From positions 1-52,943 of the forward strand of contig NZ_SLXU01000018.1 of assembly GCF_004343505.1 (NCBI RefSeq): a stretch of 52,943 bases of DNA, in the 5' to 3' direction. Positions within the stretch are counted from its first letter, which is position 1. Every line of letters starts with the position of its first letter. The position numbers were made by a program, and so were the translations under genes. Under the pieces are notes generated by a model. The model was given only the letters and a program-made list of their open reading frames with translations. It was not told the DNA's origin and ran no database searches. Positions 33,725-35,121 of the stretch are shown one piece after another. Origin of the DNA: Rhodovulum bhavnagarense (GTDB lineage Bacteria; Pseudomonadota; Alphaproteobacteria; Rhodobacterales; Rhodobacteraceae).

Positions 33725-34345
33725 ATGAACCGTATCCTGCCCGGCATCCTTGCCATGGCCGCCATCGTGGTGGCCTCCAACATCCTCGTGCAGTTCCTGT
33801 TCGGCCAATGGCTGACCTGGGGCGCGTTTACCTATCCGCTCGCCTTCCTCGTGACCGACGTGATGAACCGCGTCTACGGCCCCGGCCCCGCGCGCCGCGT
33901 GGTCTTAGCCGGTTTTCTGGTCGGGGTGGCCTGTTCCTTTGTCGGCACCCAGATCATGGGCGAATTCGGCCCACTGGTGACCCTGCGCATCGCCATGGGC
34001 TCTGGCCTGGCCTTCCTGACGGCGCAACTGCTGGACGTGGCGATCTTCGACCGGCTGCGGCAGGGGCGCTGGTGGCGCGCGCCGCTTGCCTCTACCCTGG
34101 TGGGGTCGTCCGTCGATACGGCGATCTTCTTCACCCTGGCCTTCTCGGCTTCGCTGACCTTCCTGGAACCGGGCAACGACGTGTCCTGGGCGGGCGAGGC
34201 GCTGCCGCTTCTGGGGCTGGGCCCGGTGGTGCCGCTCTGGGTGTCGCTGGCGGTGGCCGACTGGTGTGTCAAACTTGCCCTCGCCTTGATCGCGCTGATC
34301 CCGTTCCGCCTGATTGTTAGGCGCCTCACCGCACGGGTTGCGTAA
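33725..34345 (+). CDS. Queuosine precursor transporter (VUT family, YhhQ-like)
   Basis: 206 residues, about six membrane segments. TYPLAFLVTDVMNRVYGPGPARRVVLAGF is the DUF165/VUT signature. E. coli YhhQ imports queuine precursors preQ0/preQ1. The upstream 97 nt show no clear preQ1 riboswitch. Followed closely by an independent promoter and leader/sRNA. Confidence 0.87.
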   Translation: MNRILPGILAMAAIVVASNILVQFLFGQWLTWGAFTYPLAFLVTDVMNRVYGPGPARRVVLAGFLVGVACSFVGTQIMGEFGPLVTLRIAMGSGLAFLTAQLLDVAIFDRLRQGRWWRAPLASTLVGSSVDTAIFFTLAFSASLTFLEPGNDVSWAGEALPLLGLGPVVPLWVSLAVADWCVKLALALIALIPFRLIVRRLTARVA

Positions 34346-34351
34346 AAGCGT

Positions 34352-34381
34352 TTGACGAACACAAGATCTGTGGCACGCTAT
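34352..34381 (+). promoter_or_regulatory. Candidate promoter of the leader/sRNA
   Basis: TTGACG (34352-34357), 18-nt spacer, then CGCTAT (34376-34381). The -35 is good and the -10 is weak. It starts 7 nt after the transporter stop and would begin a transcript near 34388. Confidence 0.45.
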
Positions 34382-34414
34382 TCCTGACGGCAACAACAGA
34401 AAGGAGGTGGTCCA

Positions 34415-34471
34415 GTGTCTAGAGTGATATTGGAGAGAGAGGTTGGAACAGTCGGAGGGGCCGTGGTCTGA
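34415..34471 (+). CDS. 18-residue micro-ORF with extended Shine-Dalgarno
   Basis: GTG start, product MSRVILEREVGTVGGAVV, stop TGA. The stretch GAAAGGAGGTGGTCCA just before it (34399-34414) can pair with all of the 3' end of 16S rRNA (one G-U), with GGAGG 7 nt from the GTG. Five of 18 codons are Val. Translation seems very likely; function unknown (leader peptide or small protein). Confidence 0.6.
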   Translation: MSRVILEREVGTVGGAVV

Positions 34472-34541
34472 GGGCAACCCCCGGACCGAAACGCTTTCGA
34501 TTGGGCCTCACGCTCTAACCGGCCCATCTCCGTAGCTCTCG

Positions 34542-34572
34542 GGGCCGCCTGACACAGGCGGCCCTTTCCTGT
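34542..34572 (+). terminator. Intrinsic terminator between micro-ORF and arfB
   Basis: GGGCCGCCTG-ACA-CAGGCGGCCC (perfect 10-bp stem, 3-nt loop) followed by TTTCCTGTT, ending 13 nt before the arfB ATG. Placed so that termination here would cut off arfB unless read-through occurs. Confidence 0.8.
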
Positions 34573-34584
34573 TAAGAGCGTCCC

Positions 34585-35007
34585 ATGCTGCGCATCAGTG
34601 ACGATATTGCCATCGAAGACTGGGAACTGACCGAGGTGTTTTCCCGGTCCTCAGGCCCCGGCGGGCAGAACGTGAACAAGGTGTCGACCGCCGTGGATCT
34701 GCGGTTCGAGGCCGCCCGCTCCCCCAACCTGCCCGCCCCGGTCAAGACCCGCCTCAAACGGCTGGCCGGCCGCCGCTGGACGGCCGACGGCGCGGTGCTG
34801 ATCCGCGTGGAAGACACCCGCAGCCAGGCCCGCAACCGCGAGATCGCGCGTGAGCGGCTGGCCGAGCTGGTGAAGAAGGCGCTGGTGGCGCCGAAGAAAC
34901 GGCGGCCGACGCGGCCGACCCTCGGCTCTCAGCGCCGCCGCCTGAAAGCCAAGAAGGAACGCGGCGAAATCAAGAGCTTGCGCGGGCGGGTGACGGGCGA
35001 GGACTGA
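34585..35007 (+). CDS. arfB: Alternative ribosome-rescue factor / peptidyl-tRNA hydrolase ArfB (YaeJ)
   Basis: 140 residues. Single RF1-like catalytic domain with GPGGQNVNK (GGQ at 26-28) and no codon-recognition domain, followed by a basic C-terminal tail (PKKRRPTRPTLGSQRRRLKAKKERGEIK) that enters the empty mRNA channel. Releases peptides from stalled ribosomes without tmRNA. Sits directly after the terminator of the leader/sRNA. Its own ribosome-binding site is weak. Confidence 0.93.
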   Translation: MLRISDDIAIEDWELTEVFSRSSGPGGQNVNKVSTAVDLRFEAARSPNLPAPVKTRLKRLAGRRWTADGAVLIRVEDTRSQARNREIARERLAELVKKALVAPKKRRPTRPTLGSQRRRLKAKKERGEIKSLRGRVTGED

Positions 35008-35052: not shown

Positions 35053-35121
35053 ATGGGTATTTTTTCCAAGAAGAAGACAAGGGCGCGCGATACCCCCCTT
35101 CTTCTTGGGAAAAATACCCAT
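35053..35121. terminator. Inverted pair of 24-nt MGIF elements, candidate bidirectional terminator
   Basis: Copy 3 (35053-35076, plus strand) and copy 4 (35098-35121, minus strand) are 23/24 identical and face each other over a 21-nt loop, giving a 24-bp stem with one mismatch. Located between convergent arfB and pncB. The long stem with a T run in each arm fits a two-way transcript end. Confidence 0.7.

Follow-up and report, generated by a model that had tools for sequence, protein, structure and literature searches.

Organization of the locus

The window analysed here is a stretch of 52,943 nucleotides of Rhodovulum bhavnagarense (contig NZ_SLXU01000018.1). The element described below lies on the forward strand, as do both of its neighbours: a gene for a queuosine-precursor transporter on the 5′ side (33725–34345; TIGR00697, 100.9 bits with a cut-off of 50.95, and PF02592, also over its cut-off), and on the 3′ side arfB (34585–35007; NF006718, 183 bits with a cut-off of 100), a rescue-factor gene that is the 3′ neighbour in most of the Rhodobacterales rows compared. 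The order of features is transporter gene, TTGACG, a long Shine-Dalgarno (SD) sequence, a micro-ORF beginning with GTG, a terminator and arfB. The −35-like TTGACG is located at 34352–34357, shortly after the end of the transporter gene, as the original prediction had it; together with the stretch that follows, it forms a promoter-like block (34351–34380) conserved in Rhodobacterales rows. The extended SD (AGAAAGGAGGTGGTCCA) covers 17 nt, at 34398–34414, and the GTG start codon (34415–34417) is the very next triplet. It opens a micro-ORF of 18 codons (MSRVILEREVGTVGGAVV; 34415–34471) with a TGA stop at 34469–34471, which agrees with the ORF first described. The intrinsic terminator (34541–34565) has a stem of 11 pairs, nine of them G-C, followed by TTCCTGTT. 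A terminator in front of arfB had been expected and is present, but the spacing had been given as 13 nt, whereas the distance from the end of the stem to the arfB ATG (34585) is 19 nt.

The predicted small mRNA would extend from 34391 to 34573, with its 5′ end placed by position 1 of the Rfam family RF01867 (see below) and its 3′ end by the terminator. The folding z-score is −4.2 for 34388–34590 and −4.6 for 34391–34573. Among 50 Rhodobacterales rows, TTGAC occurs 31 times at −52 to −49 relative to the SD, compared with 18 times in the 400 nt upstream of those 50, and 18 times at −53 to −49 in 129 other rows. As regards a separate transcript, the promoter-like block and the terminator are both conserved, and a simple sigma-70 consensus scan of the window found no promoter. 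Beyond arfB, between this gene and a convergent pncB-like gene, a long inverted repeat was seen by eye at 35053–35121, its arms carrying GGGTATTTTT/CCAAGAAGAAG and its complement; it may be a bidirectional terminator or else some small repeat element.

The extended SD and the 16S rRNA tail

SSU rRNA was sought in the assembly of R. bhavnagarense and in that of one relative, and none was found in either. The 16S tail used, GGAUCACCUCCUUUCU, is that of Sinorhizobium meliloti; it lies within a 39-mer RNA oligonucleotide listed in a table of a paper on 16S processing in that species (PMC6943124). All 16 bases of the SD pair with this tail, which may not be the host's own 3′ end, and one of them does so as G-U; the SD of 16–17 nt that was originally proposed is present. 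It is also the best site in the genome. Across the whole genome, 29 sites lie within three mismatches of AGAAAGGAGGTGATCC, compared with nine for the backwards pattern; the window element has one mismatch, a single further site has two, and the other 27 have three. Seven sites of GGATCACCTCCTT were inspected, of which four are the reverse complement of the same element (L221, L222, L223 and L225) and three are coding-like. Chance, or an artefact of antisense to rRNA, was rejected as an origin of the element, given one copy per positive genome, a backwards control of zero, and a conserved ORF length and stop (see below).

Distribution and relation to CC2171

A BLASTN search with 34340–34590 found relatives in 31 of 61 genomes, the host's own genome counted. 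In all 30 loci fetched from this motif-free search, AAGGAGGTG is present and TC comes directly after the start codon. The exact pattern is found in 27 of the 30; L025 has the motif too, with an 18-codon ORF, and in L020 and L026 the element is on the opposite strand, with the spacing one base shorter. In the most distant hits only the SD and the first codons are kept. Such a remnant would suit an RNA whose role is to bind 30S subunits, sequestering or sensing those that are free, with the peptide incidental; we consider this possible but doubtful, for reasons that emerge from the ORF and the fold.

Of 385 genomes of the class, 72 contain the pattern AAGGAGGTGNNCCNDTGTC, each of them exactly once, and a slightly looser core pattern is present in 108 of 149 genomes of the family, again in a single copy per genome; the backwards control gave zero in both cases. 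The named stretches with the pattern, which are a sample of the matching contigs, number at least 118, and among the matches listed their labels span at least 23 families. No copies were found in the plasmid collection searched. The micro-ORF and the structure are found far beyond close relatives, rather than being confined to them, the outcome that the original prediction had named as weighing against it. Taken together, the sequence comparisons support an RNA that is structured and combines an extreme SD with a conserved micro-ORF.

The window matches RF01867 (CC2171, an sRNA of Caulobacter) at 34391–34565 over the full length of the model (positions 1–159), with E-values of 3.1e-6 and 2.2e-6. 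The two have in common a 5′ CAACAA, GAAAGGAGGTG, a start codon and TC, but the score of 36.2 bits falls short of the gathering score of 75. At E ≤ 0.01, RF01867 matches are present in 25 of 115 genomes of the class, of which five are above the gathering score; two of the matches are short. Among 14 control genomes, matches at E 0.01 were found in Caulobacter, as expected, and in the non-alphaproteobacterial Deinobacterium. In the 115 genomes searched both ways, comparison of coordinates places the pattern site at the start of the RF01867 match in 21 of 22 pattern genomes, which indicates homology rather than curated membership. CC2171 also differs in that it is catalogued as an sRNA, with no ORF mentioned in the portions of the sources available, and no function is given where CC2171 or RF01867 is named in the accessible parts of the literature searched. 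According to Schrader et al. 2014, translation occurs on two Caulobacter RNAs that had earlier been predicted to be non-coding.

The Rfam scan of the window returned no family, hence no known riboswitch, at gathering score, and a known riboswitch was discarded as an explanation on this basis. Three genomes have two RF01867 matches each at E ≤ 0.01 (G048, at L038 and L056; G075; G103), suggesting paralogues; the G048 pair comprises one MSHC-type and one MSHG-type element. Among the matches listed, the pattern with a short ORF also occurs outside the Alphaproteobacteria, judging by label, in L096, L122 (Gemmatimonadota) and L195 (Porticoccaceae, Gammaproteobacteria). The unlabelled L205 has both features as well, and has neighbours in common with L122. 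These copies could represent real spread, binning error or chance.

Conservation of the micro-ORF

The ORF is 14–35 codons long in 177 of the 181 distinct pattern rows, the remainder having 6 (at a locus end), 44, 56 and 59 codons, and in the other two frames the lengths scatter widely. In the main Rhodobacterales class, which comprises 52 rows when no length filter is applied, 50 rows have 18 codons, one has 20, and one has 16 with no stop in the available stretch. Among 47 distinct rows of this class the stop codon is TGA in 23, TAG in 16 and TAA in 8. Rows of the Bradyrhizobium type have an ORF of 14 codons in 7/7 cases. The start codon begins with A in 67, G in 110 and T in 6 of 183 rows; C is excluded by the pattern, so these counts are no test on their own. 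The conservation of length and stop would be needless in an RNA that did no more than bind 30S subunits, while the divergence of the peptide between orders is what such an RNA would be expected to show.

It has to be considered whether the 18-residue peptide is itself the functional product. Within the reading frame, 43% of single-base codon differences are synonymous, compared with 26% and 24% in the shifted frames (values not corrected for kinship), and in Rhodobacterales rows Ser2 is encoded by TCN in 47/47 and Gly11 by GGN in 46/47. A functional peptide would account for these features, but we think it unlikely, as the peptides of other orders have, among the printed rows, little in common beyond Met-Ser. 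In addition, the nearly invariant codons 6–7 double as the 3′ arm of the start-codon hairpin described below, so that their invariance is explained by RNA pairing.

The arrangement of SD and ORF recalls the small mRNAs rreR and rreB, which are said to be defined by at least 16 nt complementary to the 3′ end of 16S rRNA upstream of a short ORF. The rreB of Bradyrhizobium is reportedly an mRNA of 165 nt that has a 17-nt SD and 14 codons, and rreR in the Rhodobacter/Roseobacter lineage reportedly encodes 18 amino acids. In the window, a stretch of 16 nt or more that pairs with the 16S tail of S. meliloti precedes a short ORF, and the extended SD of 16–17 nt and the GTG start are as in rreR/rreB. 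The 18-residue ORF in the 50 of 52 Rhodobacterales rows fits the reported rreR, and the 14-residue ORF in all seven Bradyrhizobium-type rows fits the reported rreB. The window element is probably an rreR, of the 18-residue type of the Rhodobacter/Roseobacter lineage. Furthermore, rreB is said to co-sediment with 30S subunits, to be weakly translated, and to be stabilised when its start codon is replaced by a stop; the co-sedimentation would also be expected of an RNA that acts by binding 30S.

The element is new for R. bhavnagarense and looks like a kind already described in alphaproteobacteria. Relative to rreR/rreB as reported, sequence comparison would add the lineage-dependent internal anti-SD helix and the equation with CC2171, as well as, among the matches listed, a spread that includes Sphingomonadales and Acetobacterales. 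No link between rreR/rreB and CC2171 was found in the literature searched; the present analysis ties the two together. The study of rreR/rreB by Hahn et al. 2017 (RNA Biol 14:1353) is cited in the reference list of PMC7298713.

Predicted fold

For the structural alignment, rows were filtered for Leu-Glu at residues 4–9 and an ORF of 17–21 codons, which gave 53 loci, 51 of them distinct; the near-duplicates L012, L014 and L184 were left out and the remaining 48 rows aligned. The consensus fold consists of an SD:anti-SD helix, a start-codon hairpin, a helix denoted P2 and the terminator. In the first of these, GGAGGTG of the SD (34403–34409) pairs with an internal anti-SD (34525–34531), which is CATCTCC in the window and CGCCTCC or CACCTCC in other Rhodobacterales rows. 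The anti-SD varies by A/G and T/C changes, and in most rows its pairing with the invariant SD is preserved; 96.5% of cells are paired for six of the pairs and 100% for the seventh, and changes occur on the anti-SD side only. The start-codon hairpin (34411–34434) joins TCCAGT (34411–34416) to ATTGGA (34429–34434) and is paired in 99.3% of cells, with four of its six pairs invariant, one-sided changes in the other two and no covariation. Helix P2 (34452–34500; 34452–34457 with 34495–34500) surrounds the stop-codon hairpin and has two-sided changes in all six pairs, with 80.9% of cells paired, and the terminator has them in seven of eight counted pairs. The original prediction had drawn the downstream hairpins as separate elements; this stands in part, but the best fold and the alignment also pair the SD and the start codon.

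Over the whole fold, 93.2% of cells are paired, compared with 87.7% in shuffles and 38–63% in slid controls, and two-sided changes occur in 90 cells, compared with 32 in shuffles. Four of five covariation measures were reached by none of 500 shuffles and the fifth by one, and all lie above every slid control, with the reservation that the rows are related and the shuffle counts therefore overstate the support. The SD:anti-SD helix and the start-codon hairpin rest on retained pairing, since two-sided variation is absent from both.

In a composition-keeping test, the RNA behind the start region was shuffled in 175 of the 181 distinct rows; the flanks of the other six are short. The Rhodobacterales SD core has an unpaired probability of 0.05, compared with 0.29 for shuffled tails, and 41 of 54 rows fall below the 10% rank. 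In the Bradyrhizobium type (n = 7) the corresponding values are 0.10 versus 0.24 for the SD core, where one of the seven rows falls below the 10% rank, and 0.01 versus 0.42 for the start codon. In two other groups the SD core is, on average, more often unpaired than in their controls (0.41 versus 0.32, n = 29; 0.38 versus 0.27, n = 41), while the means of the MSHG type (mostly Sphingomonadales; n = 26, seven below the 10% rank) and of 18 other rows (five below) are no different from controls. A class-wide locking of the SD was rejected in view of the open groups of 29 and 41 rows.

When the Bradyrhizobium loci L156 and L165 were folded, the SD and start codon were found within one local hairpin, where the SD is paired with TGT CAC CTC, the Cys-His-Leu codons of the ORF. 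The models thus point to a lock on the SD and start codon that is lineage-specific. No description of such a lock was found in the literature searched, which covered Hahn et al. 2017 by its title. The pairing of both SD and start codon in Rhodobacterales is a further point against an RNA serving simply to capture 30S subunits.

Energy of opening

Freeing the 9-nt SD core in the window is predicted to cost 5.2 kcal/mol, and freeing GGAGG 5.0 kcal/mol, while the predicted duplex with GGAUCACCUCCUUUCU yields −14.0 kcal/mol for the 9-nt core and −27.8 kcal/mol for 16 nt. Docking of an ordinary SD would therefore not be blocked, and the notion that 9 nt of SD would scarcely bind at all was dropped in view of the 5.2 kcal/mol. 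As the core alone opens cheaply, the case for a long SD rests on the larger footprint. Freeing the 16 SD bases costs 13.8 kcal/mol in the window, and freeing the SD together with the start region to +15 costs 18.2 kcal/mol, with a mean of 17.6 kcal/mol over 54 Rhodobacterales rows; these energies exclude the contributions of ribosome and tRNA and indicate a tendency only.

In the Rhodobacterales, the larger footprint is paid for by the 9-nt duplex (−14.0 kcal/mol) in 3 of 54 rows and by the 16-nt duplex (−27.5 kcal/mol) in all 54; the corresponding numbers for the Bradyrhizobium type are 0/7 and 7/7. In the open groups, 9 nt already pay for it in 21 of 29 and 28 of 41 rows. When the 16 SD bases only are counted, the 9-nt duplex suffices in 47 of the 54 Rhodobacterales rows.

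Linkage to arfB

The original prediction proposed that the element is a leader controlling arfB, with ribosome loading or stalling on the micro-ORF altering read-through of the terminator. Linkage was counted where the right flank reached 900 nt or more, which left 47 of 52 rows of the main Rhodobacterales class and 115 of 129 outside it. In 36 of the 47 rows of the main class arfB follows on the same strand at a distance of 100–500 nt, and the 19 nt that separate terminator stem and ATG in the window are likewise in keeping with a leader; in four further rows arfB is 1.1–1.6 kb away, and in seven none is present in the available stretch, which speaks against it. Outside the main class arfB is close downstream in 2 of 115 rows, by elimination L005 and L007, same-genus variants missed by the peptide filter. 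Once these two are removed, along with L102 from Paracoccus, in which arfB was not found, a close same-strand arfB is seen in none of the 112 rows that represent other peptide types. In L151 (Hyphomonadaceae) arfB is upstream and divergent. More generally, the neighbours of the element differ between orders and some are common within an order; 15 rows (e.g. L091, L140, L148) have an upstream same-strand gene family in common, and those that were checked all belong to the MSHG type.

The fold was also modelled with the start, middle or stop region of the ORF occupied, and the terminator stem was predicted to stay in each of the three positions in the window. By eye, CGGCCC (34520–34525) could pair with the 5′ arm of the terminator and is a candidate antiterminator in the window. 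Attenuator leader peptides such as peTrpL (PMC7298713) resemble the element in having a short ORF, hairpins and a terminator; the window element differs in that it has neither a class-wide conserved downstream gene nor a predicted loss of the terminator with a ribosome bound.

The sequence TA...T is present at −22 to −5 of the arfB ATG in 14 of 40 arfB-linked loci, compared with 2 of 400 spots inside arfB, a control that consists of GC-rich coding DNA. Examples are L011, L012, L013, L014, L019, L104 and L138. This hints at a separate, near-leaderless arfB promoter in some relatives, which argues against a leader there. No TA...T was found before the arfB ATG of the window, so that arfB here may depend on read-through. 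Given the 112 unlinked rows and the persistent terminator, we regard the leader as improbable: control of arfB by the element is unlikely, and a local read-through into arfB is possible with low probability. The alternative that the original prediction had offered, an RNA pairing with the 30S subunit, is closer to the reported behaviour of the relative rreB than control of arfB is.

Proposed mechanism

The explanation that we favour, and consider reasonably probable, is that the window holds a local copy of the small-mRNA family rreR/rreB, homologous to CC2171, which forms its own transcription unit, has a locked SD and is gated by the ribosome. The element would be transcribed from its own promoter and end at its own terminator. 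In Rhodobacterales, an anti-SD copy within the RNA would pair with the long SD, and a hairpin would hold the start codon. The 9-nt SD core is predicted to open cheaply, which would allow a 30S subunit to dock. Exposure of the start region costs more than the 9-nt duplex yields, and pairing of 16 nt with the 16S tail, presumably by strand invasion, would pay for it. Conservation, ORF, helices, terminator and the difference between lineages are evident in the sequences compared. By analogy with the reported behaviour of rreB, translation of the window RNA is probably low, and its fate, both 30S binding and stability, would be set at the ribosome.

We know of no purpose for a once-per-genome RNA with a near-perfect complement of the ribosome tail. 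A more speculative view, to which we give little credence, is that the RNA is a self-locked gauge of mature 30S subunits, in which only a 16S tail that is complete and correctly trimmed fully opens the start region, the lock having arisen at least twice and arfB being an added output. If this is true, translation or decay of the RNA would report ribosome supply or maturation; the two locks would be the long-range anti-SD of Rhodobacterales and the local ORF hairpin of Bradyrhizobium, and arfB would have been placed behind the Rhodobacterales terminator as the additional output. The lock and its two constructions point to mutants with which it could be tested whether such RNAs measure ribosome supply.

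Two other groups of small RNAs are of interest for comparison. The SisA–D sRNAs of Caulobacter (PMC12559287) also contain an anti-SD-like stretch; their motif is reported to pair, in all likelihood, with other mRNAs, whereas that of the window element is predicted to pair with its own SD. A weak match to the actinobacterial sRNA Ms_IGR-5 (RF02471) covers 34393–34571 (16.4 bits, E 0.12 and 0.085). The consensus of Ms_IGR-5 starts with ACACAAGGAAGGAGGUGGUCC, and it is a possible parallel in another phylum.
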